Of a stretch of DNA of 21,986 nt, positions 6,928 through 11,791 are shown one piece after another. How positions within the stretch are numbered: the first letter of the stretch is position 1; each line of letters starts with the position of its first letter. Origin of the DNA: a virus; the IMG/VR virus record IMGVR_UViG_3300009079_000147, positions 1-21,986 of that record; one strand, written 5' to 3'. The notes under the pieces were generated by a model. It ran no database searches. It was not told the DNA's origin and was given only the letters and a program-made list of their open reading frames with translations. The position numbers were made by a program, and so were the translations under genes.

Positions 6928-6946
6928 ACTCCAACCCAAGACCCCC
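6928..6946 (+). repeat. 19-nt leader repeat, diverged copy
   Basis: ACTCCAACCCAAGACCCCC matches the consensus ATTCCATCCCAARACCCCT at 16 of 19 positions. As in the other copies its CCAACC part can pair with flanking sequence: GGTTG at 6920-6924, or GGTTGG at 6961-6966. A GGGG-TATT-CCCC hairpin follows at 6965-6976. It lies upstream of the folded RNA at 6986-7188 and may belong to its promoter or 5' end. Confidence 0.4.
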
Positions 6947-6985
6947 AGTACAATTTGAGAGGTTGGGGTATTCCCCCTCTTTAAT

Positions 6986-7188
6986 CTATTAGATCGGAGC
7001 ATTATGCAGACTAATAGTCATCACCACAATAAAGTGGTAAAGAGCTTCTCTATGCTCAAGCACGCTGATTAATGTTCAGTCTAGAGTAGAGAAGCTGATG
7101 TTTACCTTATATAATAAATAGTTGTTAGGCTGAAGCTTCGTGCGAACCTAACATTAAATACCTGTGATAAGTTGGGTAGCTATTTATT
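6986..7188 (+). ncRNA. Structured RNA candidate with kissing loops
   Basis: No open frame fills this 203-nt block, but it is dense in base pairing. Stem 1 is CTATTAG 6986-6992 with CTAATAG 7011-7017. Its loop contains GAGCAT (6997-7002), complementary to ATGCTC (7052-7057) in the loop of stem 2, AGCTTCTCTA 7043-7052 with TAGAGAAGCT 7087-7096. Between them is a hairpin ACCAC/GTGGT (7023-7038). GGTAAA 7036-7041 can pair with TTTACC 7101-7106. A second domain has an outer stem AATAAATAG 7113-7121 with CTATTTATT 7180-7188, enclosing GTTAGG/CCTAAC (7124-7152) and TACC/GGTA (7159-7178). Strand is assumed from the neighbouring plus-strand genes. The pairing is seen in the sequence; the RNA's existence and role are inferred. 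Confidence 0.5.
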
Positions 7189-7204
7189 TATATCATTCTC
7201 TCGT

Positions 7205-7230
7205 GTCTTGAATTCCATCCCAAGACCCCT
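7205..7230 (+). promoter_or_regulatory. Leader hairpin with 19-nt repeat
   Basis: ATTCCATCCCAAGACCCCT (7212-7230) forms the loop and 3' arm of a hairpin: GTCTTG 7205-7210 pairs with CAAGAC 7221-7226. It is followed by a T/A-rich spacer containing AATAATTAA and then ACATTATG, the start of the gene at 7269. The same order (hairpin, ACCC, AATAATTAA, ACATTATG) recurs before the gene at 8039, so this is probably a shared control element, either a promoter or a 5' leader. Confidence 0.5.
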
Positions 7231-7268
7231 TGCACAATTTAATAATTAACCCTTAATAATTAAACATT

Positions 7269-7589
7269 ATGCTACACATTAAAATGCCCTTCGGTTACAA
7301 CAGAATTGTCTTTGACCATTCTCACGCTATCTTCACAGGTAAGATACGAGTTAAGATTGACATCATTGATTGCCATAAGATTCTTGGTCATCATCCACAA
7401 TTGCAATTGCAAGAGGGAGCCAATGGTTGCACTACCATTAAGTTCTTAACCACTTGCGAACAGACTAATGATTTCTTAATAGCAGAAATCAATGCAATGC
7501 TTTGCAAGATAATGCACGAACGCATTGATGCAAAATATGCACCAAAGAAATGGGAGCCTGAATTGAGTACTGAATACATTGCTCTTTAA
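7269..7589 (+). CDS. Hypothetical early protein
   Basis: The 106-residue protein is the first plus-strand gene after the divergent region. It has a mixed alpha/beta pattern with several His and Cys residues (DCHKILGHH, NGCTTIKF, TTCEQ, MLCKIMHER) and no clear zinc-site spacing. No family is recognised. The start is preceded by AAACATT and a repeated leader hairpin, and a strong terminator follows the stop, so it appears to be a single-gene transcription unit. Early position and its own control elements suggest high expression soon after infection; that is inference. Confidence 0.7.
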   Translation: MLHIKMPFGYNRIVFDHSHAIFTGKIRVKIDIIDCHKILGHHPQLQLQEGANGCTTIKFLTTCEQTNDFLIAEINAMLCKIMHERIDAKYAPKKWEPELSTEYIAL

Positions 7590-7599
7590 AACTAATAAG

Positions 7600-7634
7600 G
7601 GAACGCATTATCAGAAATGATGTGCGTTCCTTTT
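7600..7634 (+). terminator. Rho-independent terminator
   Basis: An 8-bp perfect stem GGAACGCA (7600-7607) with TGCGTTCC (7623-7630) is extended by flanking A/T pairs and followed by TTTT. Inside the loop, CAT and ATG give further pairing. It lies 10 nt after the stop codon of the preceding gene. Confidence 0.8.
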
Positions 7635-7648
7635 AATAACTAAATAAT

Positions 7649-7867
7649 ATGGAAGCAACAGCAATCCTACTTGATAGAGAGAATCAAGAAATACTGATTT
7701 ACTTTGGACACACAAACTATTGTGTTCATTCACCATTAGATTGGAAAAATTACAAACTCTATTGTTATTTTAATAACATTAAGATAGTGAGAGATGAAAT
7801 AGTTAGCGTTGATTATCATGGTAAGCAATTGTCTAATGTAGACTTTGATAAACTAATAGACATTTAA
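7649..7867 (+). CDS. Hypothetical small early protein
   Basis: The 72-residue protein begins MEATAILLDRENQEILIYFG and is rich in Tyr, Asn and Asp. It looks like a small beta-rich domain with no membrane segment and no recognised motif. It sits between two terminators. The 3' end of its coding sequence, including the stop codon, is itself part of the downstream terminator hairpin. Confidence 0.65.
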   Translation: MEATAILLDRENQEILIYFGHTNYCVHSPLDWKNYKLYCYFNNIKIVRDEIVSVDYHGKQLSNVDFDKLIDI

Positions 7868-7883
7868 TGTGTCTATTAGTTTT
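7850..7883 (+). terminator. Terminator containing the stop codon
   Basis: A perfect 13-bp stem, AAACTAATAGACA (7850-7862) with TGTCTATTAGTTT (7870-7882), closes a 7-nt loop TTTAATG that holds the TAA stop of the 72-residue gene, and the T-run continues to 7883. A ribosome at the stop would cover the stem, so translation and termination may compete. Confidence 0.75.
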
Positions 7884-7885
7884 AT

Positions 7886-7909
7886 CTCCTATATATATAT
7901 ATATAGGAG
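7886..7909. repeat. 24-nt perfect palindrome
   Basis: The palindrome has CTCC and GGAG ends flanking an alternating TA core, 12 bp per arm, with no central loop. It could be a protein-binding site, a cruciform, or a second hairpin supporting the adjacent terminator. Confidence 0.7.
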
Positions 7910-7937
7910 TGAAATCTATTTCTTTCTTGTTAATATA

Positions 7938-7981
7938 ATTCCATCAAAACCCCTTTGGGAACATTCCATCCCAAAACCCTT
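7938..7981 (+). promoter_or_regulatory. Tandem leader repeats and hairpin
   Basis: Two copies of the leader repeat lie in tandem: ATTCCATCAAAACCCC (7938-7953) and ATTCCATCCCAAAACCCTT (7963-7981). The second lies in a hairpin, TTTGGGA 7954-7960 with TCCCAAA 7969-7975, loop ACATTCCA. The stem differs in sequence from the hairpin at 7205-7226 while the loop motif is kept, as expected of a conserved RNA or promoter structure. The gene at 8039 follows after an AATAATTAA spacer. Confidence 0.5.
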
Positions 7982-8038
7982 TTTACATTAGGAGTAAATA
8001 AACTCAATATAAATTTAATAATTAAAAACAGAAACATT

Positions 8039-8557
8039 ATGTTACAATTTAAAAAAGCTTCAGAAAGAGTAAGCACATTAAAGACTATTGGTACAGTTGC
8101 ATCATTTGTTGGTGCAGGTGGTAAATTTGAGCTTGCAAGCACAAACAACTTCAAAGGAACAATCAATAAAGAAGGCGTAAGAATTCTTAAGAAAGTTTCT
8201 ATTAAGTTACTTGATAAGAATGGAGATTATGAATACGTTAATTGCTCAACACCTGTTGGTAATTGGTTGCGTGAATCATCATCAGAAACTGAATTGAAAT
8301 CAAGACTTGATGAAGTTGGTAGTTTTCCAATTCTTGAACTTCCTCAATTAGAGCGTGACGAGAATAGTCCTAACTTTGGTCAACCAATAATGGTGGTAAA
8401 CAAAGAAACAGGAGAAGAAGAGCCTTTAATTCTTTATTCTATCAGCTTCACAGGAGCAACAGACATGTCAGCAACAAGCGTGAGCATTACTGATGAAATG
8501 CTTAAGAAAGAAGTTGCTAAAAGAGCAATTAACTTTGAAGACCTTATTGCTGTTTAG
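8039..8557 (+). CDS. Conserved-looking early protein, function unknown
   Basis: The 172-residue protein begins MLQFKKASERVSTLKTIG. The frame is open from 7955, but the ATG at 8039 has the local ACATTATG start context and lies after the leader hairpin, so it is preferred. The sequence is well-ordered alpha/beta with a Gly-rich turn GTVASFVGAGGKFEL (22-36), a basic strand RILKKVSIKLLDKNGDYEYVN and an acidic middle (LERDENSPNFG; KETGEEEP). No membrane segment or catalytic motif is seen. Its dedicated leader and strong 3' hairpin suggest an abundant early product. A nucleic-acid-binding role such as an SSB-like protein is possible but not supported by a recognisable motif. Confidence 0.75.
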   Translation: MLQFKKASERVSTLKTIGTVASFVGAGGKFELASTNNFKGTINKEGVRILKKVSIKLLDKNGDYEYVNCSTPVGNWLRESSSETELKSRLDEVGSFPILELPQLERDENSPNFGQPIMVVNKETGEEEPLILYSISFTGATDMSATSVSITDEMLKKEVAKRAINFEDLIAV

Positions 8558-8564
8558 TAATACA

Positions 8565-8600
8565 ATAGTAGCAGGCTCATTAATTTGAGCTTGCTATTAT
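8565..8600 (+). terminator. Long hairpin after the 172-residue gene
   Basis: A 14-bp stem (8565-8578 with 8587-8600) including two G-U pairs closes an 8-nt loop, 8 nt after the stop codon. No clean T-run follows (ATATAAGGG), so it may act as a 3'-end stabiliser or an atypical terminator. Confidence 0.55.
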
Positions 8601-8606
8601 ATATAA

Positions 8607-8632
8607 GGGTGGGTTTGAAAAATATGGGTGGG
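8607..8632 (+). repeat. G-quadruplex motif
   Basis: Four GGG tracts at 8607, 8611, 8626 and 8630 are separated by loops of 1, 12 and 1 nt. This is conspicuous in AT-rich DNA. GGGTGGGTTTG (8607-8617) is the exact inverted counterpart of CAAACCCACCC at 6817-6827. The next 200 nt to the following gene hold only A/T-rich sequence with a repeated AAACTTTTT (about 8667 and 8690). Confidence 0.5.
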
Positions 8633-8836
8633 AAATAAAAGAAACATTCTACCTATATATATGTATAAAACTTTTTACGAGGGAGAAAAAAACTTTTTGT
8701 AAGAATATTACATAGCAATCATATGTTTTTATGTGAAATGTGTGTGTAAATATGTCGAGGTGTGTACCTTCATAGTATAATAAGTGATAAAAACAAATCA
8801 GAAATAACGTATAACATAAATAATATATATAGCATT

Positions 8837-9034
8837 ATGAAGACATTACTTGTAAACATTGGAGGAATATATGATACATATACATCTATTCTTATAGAAG
8901 GAGAATATACTAGATTATATAAAGGACTTAGATATGAATCTATTGAGTCTATATATATATTATCTACTATTGAGTTATTAGATCTTTCTGATGTCATTAC
9001 AATATTAATGATTCAAGAGGATATATATAAATAA
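8837..9034 (+). CDS. Hypothetical small protein
   Basis: The 65-residue protein begins MKTLLVNIGGIYDTYTSILIEG. An earlier in-frame ATG exists at 8762, but this start has the recurrent GCATTATG context seen at other genes here. The protein is rich in Ile, Leu, Tyr and Ser, with a C-terminal helix LSTIELLDLSDVITILMIQEDIYK. No clear membrane segment or known family is seen. A pseudoknotted RNA candidate follows the stop. Confidence 0.55.
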   Translation: MKTLLVNIGGIYDTYTSILIEGEYTRLYKGLRYESIESIYILSTIELLDLSDVITILMIQEDIYK

Positions 9035-9037
9035 TAG

Positions 9038-9125
9038 GCTCTTCTACGGGCCCTTTGTAATACAATCAACTACCAGTAGTGTGGTGCAATATTAGAAGAG
9101 CATTAGAAGTATGCTATAGTTGATT
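9038..9125 (+). ncRNA. H-type pseudoknot RNA candidate
   Basis: Two perfect 9-bp helices interleave: GCTCTTCTA 9038-9046 with TAGAAGAGC 9093-9101, and AATCAACTA 9064-9072 with TAGTTGATT 9117-9125. Small hairpins fill the connecting segments: TTGT/ACAA (9055-9065), ACCA/TGGT (9072-9085) and AGCAT/ATGCT (9099-9115), some of which compete with the long helices. There is no open frame. The A-B-A'-B' order is a classical pseudoknot. Whether it is a separate RNA or the 3'UTR of the upstream gene is not clear. Confidence 0.5.
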
Positions 9126-9137
9126 TTTATATTAACC

Positions 9138-9256
9138 TTCAGGAGTTCCATATGAGCCATCCTGAAACCAAAAGAGAATTATAGTAGAATAATAATATTC
9201 TCTCATAGTATGGAACATTCCTACTAACACATCTAGAGGACTATGAGAGATTATTA
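9138..9256 (+). ncRNA. Structured RNA candidate with kissing loops
   Basis: Hairpin 1 is TTCAGGA 9138-9144 with TCCTGAA 9160-9166. Its loop starts with GTTCCATA (9145-9152), complementary to TATGGAAC (9209-9216), which opens the loop of hairpin 2. Hairpin 2 is TAATAAT 9190-9196 plus CTCTCATAG 9200-9208 with CTATGAGAG 9241-9249 plus ATTATTA 9250-9256 (16 bp, 3-nt bulge). A competing hairpin GAGAAT/ATTCTC (9174-9202) suggests a possible switch. The arrangement matches that at 6986-7096. Pairing is seen directly; the function is unknown. Confidence 0.5.
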
Positions 9257-9319
9257 TAACACAACATATAATTTACAAATACATTGTTATTTGTTAGTTA
9301 TATTTAACATTATACAGAC

Positions 9320-9544
9320 ATGAACACAATTACAATTGACATTAGTGAGCTATTGATGCATTACATCATTCCTTACATTCTTATGTGTATTGGTTGGTAT
9401 TACATTATATCAACTGATTATGAAAGAATGTATTATAGATTTATATATATATGTTGGGCTTGTATATTAGCATTGTTCTCAACAGCAGTATATGTTTCTG
9501 TTTATGCTCTTCTGTCACAAATACATTTCAACATTACATTATAA
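9320..9544 (+). CDS. Small membrane protein, two TM helices
   Basis: The 74-residue protein has hydrophobic helices at about residues 9-30 (LLMHYIIPYILMCIGWYYII) and 40-68 (YRFIYICWACILALFSTAVY and beyond), joined by a short polar turn STDYERM. It is very rich in Tyr, Ile and Trp. It is the first of a run of tiny membrane proteins between structured RNA blocks. Possible roles are superinfection exclusion, membrane remodelling or lysis control; nothing in the sequence decides. Confidence 0.65.
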   Translation: MNTITIDISELLMHYIIPYILMCIGWYYIISTDYERMYYRFIYICWACILALFSTAVYVSVYALLSQIHFNITL

Positions 9545-9639
9545 TCATTTAACTCCTAGAACAGTAGGATGTAGTACATATACACCTTCAAACTCTGAAG
9601 ATTTGGTCGTTTTCCTTTTATGAATAACTATAAATGATT
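9543..9639 (+). ncRNA. Three-helix RNA candidate
   Basis: A perfect 9-bp outer stem, AATCATTTA (9543-9551) with TAAATGATT (9631-9639), encloses two 5-bp hairpins, TCCTA/TAGGA (9554-9569, loop GAACAG) and CTTCA/TGAAG (9586-9600, loop AACTC). The outer stem begins inside the stop codon of the upstream gene. It may be a small folded RNA or a structured intergenic spacer. The evidence is weaker than for the other RNA blocks. Confidence 0.35.
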
Positions 9640-9656
9640 TAACTAACACATACATT

Positions 9657-9752
9657 ATGTATCACGAGAATAAAAAGAACCAAGGATTACAAACTATACT
9701 ATGGATAATAGTTATAGCATTTGTATTCTTAATTAGATTATTAATCCCTTAA
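9657..9752 (+). CDS. 31-residue single-pass membrane peptide
   Basis: The peptide starts MYHENKKNQG, a charged N-terminus, followed by one hydrophobic helix LQTILWIIVIAFVFLIRLLI and a stop after Pro. The start has the recurrent ACATTATG context. It is too short to classify. Its plausibility comes from the start context, the clear membrane segment and the neighbours of the same type. Confidence 0.5.
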   Translation: MYHENKKNQGLQTILWIIVIAFVFLIRLLIP

Positions 9753-9763
9753 TAACAAACAAT

Positions 9764-9970
9764 ATGAAATCAACAAAAATTATGCTTGCTATAATAGCAT
9801 GCTTACTTACAACATGGACTTCTATAAGTCTTATTGGATATGCTCTATCAGAGCTATCCTTACGTGAATGTTACACACATGGTGGAACATTAATGCTTAT
9901 GTTAATATTTGGTTGGATACCAGCTGTTATAATAGCATGTGATTATGACAAACATCTTAATAGTTTTTAA
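9764..9970 (+). CDS. Small membrane protein, two TM helices
   Basis: In this 68-residue protein, helix one spans about residues 6-28 (MLAIIACLLTTWTSISLIGY) and helix two about 41-59 (GTLMLMLIFGWIPAVIIA), linked by ALSELSLRECYTHG, with a charged tail CDYDKHLNSF. It ends one base before the ATG of the lipoprotein gene. No family is recognised. Confidence 0.6.
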   Translation: MKSTKIMLAIIACLLTTWTSISLIGYALSELSLRECYTHGGTLMLMLIFGWIPAVIIACDYDKHLNSF

Positions 9971-9971
9971 T

Positions 9972-10097
9972 ATGAGACAGTTTAAGCCTTATGCAATAGC
10001 ATTAGTTCTTTTCACAGTTATATTACTGTGTTCTAGTTGTAGTAGTAATCATTGTTTCCACAAATCAAGCAGTTGGACACATAATAGTAGAAGATAA
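9972..10097 (+). CDS. Tiny predicted lipoprotein
   Basis: The 41-residue protein has a basic start MRQFKP, a hydrophobic stretch YAIALVLFTVILL and then CSSCSSN, giving a lipobox-like site ahead of Cys23 (LLCSSC). This is similar to the Ser-rich lipoboxes common in Bacteroidota. The mature part would be only about 19 residues, Ser/His/Arg-rich. Small phage lipoproteins elsewhere block outer-membrane receptors (for example T5 Llp) or take part in lysis (Rz1), so either role is conceivable. No Rz partner overlaps it, which argues weakly against Rz1. Confidence 0.5.
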   Translation: MRQFKPYAIALVLFTVILLCSSCSSNHCFHKSSSWTHNSRR

Positions 10098-10101
10098 CAA
10101 C

Positions 10102-10233
10102 ATGAAAAACATTAAAAAACAATTAGCTTACATGTGGAAACATAGAGAAGCTGTAATAGGGCTAATAATACTATTAGCTCTATTATTTTCTGGATTAGTA
10201 TTAATAGAAGTAATAATAGATAAAGCATTATAA
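10102..10233 (+). CDS. 43-residue single-pass membrane protein
   Basis: It begins with a basic amphipathic N-terminus MKNIKKQLAYMWKHRE, then one membrane helix (about 17-39, VIGLIILLALLFSGLVLIEV), ending IIDKAL. It follows the lipoprotein gene by 4 nt and precedes the next ATG by 4 nt, so it is part of a tight operon of small proteins. The basic-inside rule would place the N-terminus in the cytoplasm. Confidence 0.55.
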   Translation: MKNIKKQLAYMWKHREAVIGLIILLALLFSGLVLIEVIIDKAL

Positions 10234-10237
10234 CATT

Positions 10238-10429
10238 ATGAGAACAGAACAAATTGAACAGAGAATCAAAGACATCACTAATCAAATCTATGTATTAGAT
10301 AGTGTAAAAGACATGTATGATGATACAAATATCCATGAGATAGAACATCAACAAGAAGGATTAATTAATGAACGATATACACTAACACAATTGTTAGAGA
10401 GTTGTTTTGATCAAATGATAGGACTATGA
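10238..10429 (+). CDS. Small coiled-coil protein
   Basis: The 63-residue protein is almost wholly helical, with heptad-like spacing in QIEQRIKDITNQIYVLDSVK and again in HEIEHQQEGLINERYTLTQL. No membrane segment is visible. It is soluble, unlike its neighbours, and its stop overlaps the next start as ATGA, so the two products may be made in fixed ratio and could interact. Confidence 0.6.
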   Translation: MRTEQIEQRIKDITNQIYVLDSVKDMYDDTNIHEIEHQQEGLINERYTLTQLLESCFDQMIGL

Positions 10430-10587
10430 TAGTATTATATATTATTACATCATACTTAGTTATGCTAGGTGTGTTCATAGAGATTTATGATAAATTAGAT
10501 GATGTGAAGGCTCAGGCTTTCGCATCATTTATATTTAGTCCCATTCTATTACCAATTCTTATTGGTATGATATTAGGTAAGAAATAA
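10426..10587 (+). CDS. 53-residue membrane protein
   Basis: It starts in an ATGA overlap with the coiled-coil gene. Two hydrophobic segments, about residues 2-20 (IVLYIITSYLVMLGVFIEI) and 32-50 (FASFIFSPILLPILIGMIL), flank a charged loop YDKLDDVKAQ, with a GKK tail. It is a hairpin-type membrane protein of unknown function. Confidence 0.55.
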   Translation: MIVLYIITSYLVMLGVFIEIYDKLDDVKAQAFASFIFSPILLPILIGMILGKK

Positions 10588-10605
10588 TTAAACAAACAGA
10601 TAACA

Positions 10606-10836
10606 ATGAAGAAAGATTTAAAGACAATAGATCAGCTATTGAATGAATTAAAGACAATTAGAGCTGATGTACATGATTTTCATGTAAAAACAGAAAGACT
10701 AATAGACATTAAAGACAGTATAATAAATGTGCTAGAGAAACAGAAAGCTATATATAAGCGTGATTTGAACATCATGACTTGGATATGTGCTGTATTAACT
10801 GTAGCATCAATAACTGTATTCATCACTACGCTGTAA
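10606..10836 (+). CDS. Coiled-coil protein with C-terminal TM anchor
   Basis: In this 76-residue protein, residues 1-54 form a long charged helix or coiled coil (DLKTIDQLLNELKTIRADVH and IKDSIINVLEKQKAIYKRD). Residues 57-76 are a single membrane helix (MTWICAVLTVASITVFITTL) ending at the C-terminus, so it is tail-anchored. This layout is known for small phage proteins that sit on the inner membrane with a cytoplasmic coil, including some holin-related and exclusion proteins. The exact role is unknown. Confidence 0.6.
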   Translation: MKKDLKTIDQLLNELKTIRADVHDFHVKTERLIDIKDSIINVLEKQKAIYKRDLNIMTWICAVLTVASITVFITTL

Positions 10837-10837
10837 C

Positions 10838-10993
10838 ATGAGACCTAGAATTAGCAAGGGAACATTAGTTGGTTCAACTAATACCTACAGACATACATTG
10901 TCTAAGAGACTAATAGTGGAAGTGATATATAATTTCAAGAGAGGAATTATAAAACAAAGAACAATTGATGTAAGACATACACTTAATCAATAA
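10838..10993 (+). CDS. 51-residue basic protein
   Basis: It begins MRPRISKGTLVGSTNTYRHT and is rich in Arg and Lys, with a predicted strand pattern LIVEVIYNF followed by a basic tail RGIIKQRTIDVRHTLNQ. The positive charge suggests nucleic-acid contact. It ends the small-protein operon, 8 nt before the -7 box of the non-coding RNA locus. Confidence 0.5.
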   Translation: MRPRISKGTLVGSTNTYRHTLSKRLIVEVIYNFKRGIIKQRTIDVRHTLNQ

Positions 10994-11001
10994 TAATTTA
11001 T

Positions 11002-11009
11002 TATATTTG
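11002..11009 (+). promoter_or_regulatory. Bacteroides-type -7 box for the RNA locus
   Basis: TATATTTG matches the TAnnTTTG consensus exactly. No convincing -33 TTG is found at the expected spacing. The transcript would start near 11016 and run into the kissing-loop block, the tRNA-like element and the tmRNA, all without a clear terminator between them. Confidence 0.5.
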
Positions 11010-11031
11010 CAATTATTGTATAATCACTGGG

Positions 11032-11087
11032 GACTATAAACGCCACATAGCAGTTTAAATAGTCAATGTATGTGCTGCGTATCATTG
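11032..11087 (+). ncRNA. Kissing-loop RNA candidate
   Basis: Hairpin 1 is GACTAT 11032-11037 with ATAGTC 11059-11064. Its loop holds ATAGCAG (11047-11053), complementary with one bulge to CTGCGTAT (11075-11082) in the loop of hairpin 2, CAATG 11064-11068 with CATTG 11083-11087. It lies right after the predicted transcription start. The plan, hairpin loop pairing with the next hairpin loop, repeats that of 6986-7096 and 9138-9256. Confidence 0.45.
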
Positions 11088-11106
11088 AACTTACCTATAT
11101 TATACA

Positions 11107-11154
11107 TTTAGGTTACAGAGGAGTATTTAGAAAGGTTTGAATCCTTTCCTGAAA
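11107..11154 (+). other. T-arm-like RNA element
   Basis: GAAAGG (11130-11135), TTTGAAT and CCTTTC (11143-11148) form a hairpin very like a tRNA T-arm. TTTAGG (11107-11112) can pair with the following CCTGAAA (11148-11154) with one bulged G, as a short acceptor stem. There is room for a D-arm but none for an anticodon arm. The segment after it (11155-11203) carries D-arm and anticodon-arm-like sequence (TAGCTAAGCTGTGTAAAGCG, then CAGA/TCTG closing ACTTATAA). This is a rearranged or decayed tRNA cluster, or a new fold. Confidence 0.3.
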
Positions 11155-11203
11155 AATAGCTAAGCTGTGTAAAGCGTCAGAACTTATAATCTGTTAGAAG
11201 CTA

Positions 11204-11261
11204 AGTCAGGTGAATTGGTTCGGTAGTTTACTACAAGTGGGTTCAACTCCCACCCTGACTA
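11204..11261 (+). ncRNA. tRNA-like element without anticodon arm
   Basis: A perfect 7-bp acceptor stem, AGTCAGG (11204-11210) with CCTGACT (11254-11260), and a perfect T-arm GTGGG-TTCAACT-CCCAC (11237-11253) that fits the TTCRANY loop consensus are present. A D-arm-like segment AATTGGTTCGGTAGTT lies between. Only about 8 nt remain where the anticodon arm and variable loop should be, so it cannot read codons as a normal tRNA. The layout recalls the tRNA-like domain of tmRNA, and a tmRNA lies 100 nt downstream. It could be a decayed tRNA or a functional mimic. Confidence 0.5.
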
Positions 11262-11271
11262 CAAAAAAATC

Positions 11272-11360: not shown

Positions 11361-11763
11361 GGGGGTGACATGGAATTGATTGCACATGTTACTTATTAAT
11401 GTTCAGCCCAGAGAGATAACTGGTTAAAACTAAGGTGAATCATTTTAAATGGAAACACAAACGAGAATGCCCAAGTACGAGCTAATATGACTGTTGTTCA
11501 CAACATCCTTAATGGAGAAGTTTCTGCTTCAAGAGAAGTAGAGTTAGCTGTGGCTGCCTAACCAAAGACTAGGTGATTGAGTCAAACACTGGCTGACTAT
11601 AAAAATTGCCATAGAAGACTTGTATGTTACTTTAAAAACATTCTGGTGGATGTCTTCTTAATAGTTGACCCTTTGTAACGTAAAGAGTTTAAACAAACGT
11701 AAAGCTGTATAAAACATTGATAATGAAGTGTGTAAGACAGGAGTTCGACTCTCCTCACCTCCA
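11361..11763 (+). ncRNA. ssrA: tmRNA (transfer-messenger RNA)
   Basis: tmRNA rescues ribosomes stalled on broken mRNA and tags the nascent chain. The 5' end GGGGGTG pairs over 7 bp with CACCTCC (11756-11762), followed by discriminator A; CCA is not encoded. The T-arm AGGAG-TTCGACT-CTCCT (11739-11755) is canonical, and no anticodon arm exists. TATTAATGTT near 11390 pairs with AACATTGATA near 11714 to give P2. The likely resume codon is GCT at 11481, with UA at -5/-4 as in other tmRNAs. The frame then runs 26 codons, ending E-L-A-V-A-A, and stops with TAA at 11559-11561. A pseudoknot follows (GAAGAC 11614 with GTCTTC 11652; GTTAC 11626 with GTAAC 11675). Host SmpB would be needed, since none is seen here. 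A start at the in-frame GAG 18 nt earlier is a less likely alternative. Confidence 0.92.
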
Positions 11764-11791
11764 CTTCCACAAAAATAACTGAGCACTTCCA

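Follow-up and report, generated by a model that had tools for sequence, protein, structure and literature searches.

Do three short structured blocks in the intergenic gaps of one viral genome fragment represent copies of a single RNA family, and, if they do not, what kind of RNA does each of them represent? The fragment (hereafter the window) comprises positions 1 to 21,986 of IMG/VR record IMGVR_UViG_3300009079_000147 and was analysed over its entire length of 21,986 bases. Blocks 1, 2 and 3 all lie in plus-strand gaps between small open reading frames (ORFs). A preliminary description of the sequence had noted in each block a kissing-loop plan, that is, a hairpin whose loop is complementary to the loop of a downstream hairpin, and had proposed on this basis a multicopy RNA family. 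We find that structured non-coding RNAs do occupy these gaps and that the loop-loop pairing of block 3 is kept in its relatives. The interpretation as a single family does not hold, and the more interesting result is a mosaic of RNA modules to which block 3 belongs.

Block 3 is a kissing-loop RNA common to different phages

Block 3 spans positions 11017-11106 on the plus strand (90 nt) and exceeds the originally delimited interval, 11032-11087, on both sides. The aligned copies fold as a three-way junction closed by P1 (11017-11024/11099-11106; TGTATAAT/ATTATACA) and by P1b (11028-11031/11094-11097), a short helix, with P2 (11032-11037/11059-11064) and P3 (11065-11068/11083-11086) branching off. 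The P2-loop side of the kissing helix (11041-11049) consists of an invariant CGC followed by CACATA (11044-11049); the P3-loop side (11069-11079) reads TATGTG-CT-GCG, with TATGTG at 11069-11074 complementary to CACATA.

Pattern scans returned 22 viral contigs with a match to block 3, or 21 besides the window once contig L101 was removed, its match being a chance occurrence inside a gene that the covariance model rejects. Twenty copies were aligned, comprising 13 distinct variants on which the pairing figures are based. Over the five helices, 97.5% of cells are paired; for the kissing helix the figure is 93%, against only 18-52% when its register is slid. Double changes affect six pairs: four belong to the kissing helix, one to P1 (U-A to C-G in L100/L102) and one to P3 (A-U to G-C in L009). 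The covariation score was reached by none of 500 shuffles. The best single piece of evidence for the kiss is the L009 class, in which both loops have changed: between themselves they form a duplex of -9.2 kcal/mol, compared with -4.9 kcal/mol when combined with the loops of the window. Block 3 is a real kissing-loop RNA with a conserved fold that is common to different phages.

Several observations weigh against this conclusion. The copies are 94% identical, and few independent covariation events are therefore available; the clear ones are those of L009/L016/L048 and, in P1, of L100/L102. Loops of the L023 class still pair, yet loop 1 of this class prefers loop 2 of the window, and the kiss is weaker in the variants L029, L047 and L050. 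Finally, block 3 taken alone folds no better than shuffled sequence (z -1.4).

Shared topology and the question of a single family

The hairpins and complementary loops of the preliminary description were confirmed, with matches of 6, 8 and 6 nt in blocks 1, 2 and 3, respectively, as was the lack of open frames: no ORF of at least 40 amino acids covers any block on either strand. GAGCAT (6997-7002) matches ATGCTC (7052-7057) in block 1, and GTTCCATA (9145-9152) matches TATGGAAC (9209-9216) in block 2. To assess the topology itself, we scanned for pairs of successive hairpins, requiring 6 bp or more in each stem and 6 nt or more of complementarity between the loops. Such arrangements form 44 clusters across the window and 5 within 1,691 intergenic bases, while dinucleotide shuffles of the same intergenic DNA yield 3.7 +/- 1.2 clusters. 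Because shuffled sequence is nearly as rich, an outcome that the preliminary description had itself named as speaking against its proposal, the kissing-loop plan alone is no evidence of kinship. The lesson extends to AT-rich phage intergenes in general, where a repeated topology is not by itself proof of a family.

The individual blocks differ in how well their kisses fare. A shuffled loop would produce the match with a probability of about 0.10 in block 1, 0.002 in block 2 and 0.05 in block 3, uncorrected for the choice of hairpins. As plain folds, blocks 1 and 2 are unusually stable relative to shuffles (z -3.8 and -4.0, respectively). Both segments of the block 1 kiss are locally paired, and opening them costs 9.1 kcal/mol for a return of 6.5 kcal/mol from the loop duplex; the kiss of block 2 is favourable (cost 3.0, return 8.7 kcal/mol), and that of block 3, with six pairs, is about neutral by nearest-neighbour rules (cost 4.4, return 4.2 kcal/mol). 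Support from relatives exists for block 3 only. One could suppose that the complementarities arose by chance and that nested hairpins alone matter in all three blocks, as the shuffle frequencies, the energetics of block 1 and the limit that high sequence identity sets to the block 3 covariation test would allow. We consider this improbable, given that the loop-loop pairs of block 3 covary and largely remain paired and that the L009 loops are specific to each other.

Covariance models likewise separate the blocks. Within the window, the block 3 model matches only itself, and block 2 obtains just 10.2 bits (E 0.43) with the block 1 model, amid noise of equal score. Nor do we see more than one copy of block 3 per phage: it is single in all 13 carrier records of a 35-record survey, several of which exceed 110 kb, and in 7 further records. 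Covariation in the helices, by which the preliminary description proposed to judge the family, is present in block 3; the copies of block 2 that have both loops are invariant, and block 1 has no relatives to draw on. We judge it highly improbable that the three arose by divergence within one phage RNA family with a common kissing-loop fold. Loop-loop complementarity in all three, the small features that blocks 1 and 2 share (the kiss ends in CAU:AUG on its inner side, and CTAGAG stands late in the second loop), and the weak full-length match of block 2 to the block 1 model would fit such descent; against it stand the noise-level score of that very match, the self-restricted block 3 model, the similar frequency of the topology in shuffles, and the 3' stem-loop of block 2, which lacks its partner loop in three of four distinct contexts. 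On present evidence the three blocks are not copies of one family. The phage carries blocks 1 and 2 as further structured RNAs, unrelated to block 3; the likeness of plan is a coincidence for block 1 and is particular to one module combination for block 2.

Blocks 1 and 2

Block 2 is a composite. Its hairpin 1 (9138-9166, plus strand), which presents GTTCCATA in the loop, occurs only in the window, L005 and L056. The 3' stem-loop (9190-9252, plus strand), with TATGGAAC in its loop, is a separate, near-invariant module, 95-100% identical in L048, L056, L065/L067 and L066. Different RNAs precede it in L048, L065/L067 and L066, and the upstream sequence examined there (up to 600 nt) contains no GTTCC. 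The kiss may form in the combination found in the window; it is not the reason for the conservation of the module. A distant stem-loop match in G011 (L107) was dismissed, having no consistent stem.

Block 1 (6986-7096, plus strand) consists of a hairpin at 6986-7017, a small hairpin at 7023-7038 and a long imperfect hairpin at 7043-7096. It is followed by a 3' domain of the same RNA (7108-7195, plus strand), predicted by folding (z -1.3), in which a stem AUAAAUAG/CUAUUUAU encloses inner hairpins; no homologue of this domain was found. Block 1 has no relative among 38 related records, and its structure model returned one chance match only over 461 kb of loci. A 20.9-bit match in L045 was dismissed because it runs antisense to an ORF, and a group I intron piece, an idea prompted by GTTCAGTCTAGAG, was set aside as Rfam gave no such match in the window. 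Block 1 stands alone, and its kiss is energetically unfavourable.

The slot that holds block 1 starts with a promoter-like repeated motif and GGTTGGGG..CCCCC (6931-6976, plus strand). This motif is conserved in L002-L004, where other sequence fills the slot. The form CCAtCCCAAgACCCCyt..ACAATTTgA recurs before genes of the window (6931-6960, 7213-7240 and 7940-7990) and is a candidate promoter for an RNA polymerase of the phage itself.

A fourth apparent kiss at 9036, between GCTCTTCT and AGAAGAGC, was dropped, because L031, L054 and L060 have the GGGCTCTTCTACGGGCCC hairpin but not the partner. This terminator-like hairpin (GGGCTCTTCTACGGGCCC-TTT, 9036-9056) is near-invariant and directly follows stop codons in about 12 contigs. 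Two further conserved structured RNAs, J (9062-9130; closing stem ATCAACTA/TAGTTGAT) and K (9545-9645; AATCATTTA/TAAATGATT), are also found in other phage contigs.

A mosaic of RNA modules

Block 3 is the first member (module A) of a series whose order is fixed: A is followed by B or a small element resembling transfer RNA (tRNA), then by C, and then by D, E, a tRNA or a transfer-messenger RNA (tmRNA). The order is constant throughout, any one of the modules A, B, C and D/E may be missing, and tandem modules adjoin without linkers. Modules A to E have no Rfam match, and no description of them was found in the open-access literature.

Module C, a highly conserved 54-nt three-way junction (11151-11204, plus strand), lies downstream of block 3 and adjoins a tRNA-like element. 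An exact 22-mer of it occurs in 30 viral contigs, some longer than 100 kb and one reaching 430 kb, and its third helix covaries, with four pair types at one position. In L015, L026, L034 and the cultured Flavobacterium phage elemoA (strain BAL314) it adjoins tRNA 5' ends with a gap of 0-2 nt; the tRNA is a suppressor with anticodon UUA in L034 (2462-2582) and tRNA-Ala in elemoA. Module C is also found directly upstream of tmRNA and other RNAs. It is possibly a processing element or a ribozyme. Self-cleavage is a mere lead, and module C has no match among known ribozymes.

In the window, the intervals 11108-11153 and 11204-11262 hold truncated tRNA-like elements that retain acceptor and T arm but lack a complete anticodon arm; with the tRNA model the second reaches 24.7 bits, short of the cut-off of 29. 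The tmRNA gene, part of the same RNA operon, follows at 11361-11764 on the plus strand (Rfam RF00023, 81.9 bits; ARAGORN) and encodes an unusually long tag, ENAQVRANMTVVHNILNGEVSASREVELAVAA. In two relatives, phage tmRNA genes carry group I introns in their 3' part (L042 3998-4221, minus strand; L061 3280-3538, minus strand).

Elsewhere in the window, the minus strand encodes portal and large terminase proteins; the plus strand encodes DNA polymerase, helicase-like and endonuclease proteins. The tmRNA region is similar to Cellulophaga phage phi14:2 and Flavobacterium phages, and we therefore read the 22-kb window as part of the genome of a crAss-like phage with a Bacteroidota host, the crAss assignment being in part our presumption from general knowledge.

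Two observations hint that the RNA modules are linked to DUF805: a DUF805 gene takes the place of block 3 in L010 (3498-3834), and block 3 and module B are immediately followed by the DUF805b RNA of Rfam in L050 (492-524) and L052 (6695-6727).

Position of block 3 and a possible role in cis

Most copies of block 3 start 25-60 nt past the upstream ORF, behind the element TATATTTG. In the window this candidate Bacteroidota-type -7 element lies directly before block 3 (11002-11009, plus strand). A fuller version, ATCCCTG..TATATTTGCAGGGAT, precedes the homologue in most relatives, and the inverted repeat ATCCCTG..CAGGGAT flanks the element in most copies. As a promoter the element is a candidate assigned by consensus only. 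The placement with respect to a transcript start is mixed: in L023, L051, L053 and L100 block 3 instead begins 9 nt after a stop codon.

Downstream of block 3, many contigs carry tmRNA or tRNA genes, and L050 and L052 carry small ORFs at a distance of about 180 nt. In L100/L102, which belong to another phage type, block 3 stands between a 98-amino-acid gene and an AAA ATPase gene; block 3 is therefore not simply part of a tRNA precursor. Searches of bacterial genomes returned no match for block 3 or module C, and annotated phage records returned none for blocks 1, 2 and 3.

From its constant placement at the start of an untranslated stretch, we infer that block 3 acts in cis, through protection, processing or antitermination. 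The pairing between the P2 and P3 loops would hold the three-way junction in shape, and block 3 would mark the beginning of an untranslated stretch of transcript, either a few nt behind an element resembling a promoter or some 9 nt past a stop codon. Its target would be the RNA behind it, in most cases tRNA-like RNAs and tmRNA. Block 3 could shield the 5' end of that RNA in a compact fold or set a boundary for processing, could enable RNA polymerase to traverse untranslated DNA, or could do both. We regard a portable cis-acting kissing-loop domain of this kind as plausible, with its chances a little short of even.

A narrower version of cis action is that block 3 is a put-like antiterminator, as in phage HK022, with the nascent RNA binding polymerase and causing terminator read-through. 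A short structured RNA right at the start of an untranslated transcript or directly after a stop codon would suit this role, as would its movement between unrelated phages and cargos and a strongly conserved sequence that fits a polymerase contact. The put RNAs of HK022, however, consist of two stem-loops where block 3 is a three-way junction, and the L100 copy lies within an operon, between two genes; we consider a put-like function rather unlikely. The resemblance, drawn from general knowledge only, is that of short phage RNAs near a transcript start with presumed action in cis, and the folds differ.

On a broader and more tentative reading, which we hold possible, Bacteroidota phages share a kit of small RNAs, including module C, the stem-loop of block 2 and block 3 itself, and recombine them so that they serve tRNA, tmRNA and further genes as ready-made leaders and spacers, with block 3 as a new class of cis-acting kissing-loop leader controlling the fate of untranslated transcripts. 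The modules lack Rfam matches, yet they are near-identical in dozens of viral contigs that differ in size and gene content. If the proposed cis action is true, the phages of this phylum would carry a transferable RNA toolkit for the expression of stable RNAs, an idea that the presence of module C in the cultured phage elemoA makes directly testable.

Comparison with known RNAs

The kissing-loop RNA of block 3 is not described in Rfam. Its closest architectural counterpart here is the purine riboswitch (RF00167), which has the same P1/P2/P3 plan with a three-way junction and a helix between the loops of P2 and P3. A ligand-sensing riboswitch of this build would also be in keeping with a junction and stems that are nearly invariant beside variable loops. 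Block 3 differs from it in junction sequence, an extra P1b, a zero-length J2/3 and unrelated downstream genes: tmRNA, tRNA and AAA ATPase suggest no common pathway, no expression platform was seen, no Rfam riboswitch matches, and cmscan did not report the purine riboswitch model even at a limit of E 5. We find a riboswitch hard to credit.

The DUF805b RNA (RF02914) is a neighbour of block 3 and module B in L050 and L052; it is a 35-nt motif of other sequence and structure.

GOLLD and ROOL are phage-encoded RNAs of several hundred nucleotides that occur near tRNA islands, use kissing loops and form cages (PMC12286853). The modules could by analogy be parts of a large ornate RNA of this type, in which the kissing loop would aid assembly; the setting in phage tRNA/tmRNA clusters, the kissing loops and the linker-free tandem arrangement are what such an RNA might present. 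We judge this very unlikely, as no module has an Rfam match and the modules occur singly and in varied combinations. Block 3 itself measures 90 nt, matches neither the GOLLD nor the ROOL model, and also occurs alone, as in L100, where it stands between protein genes.

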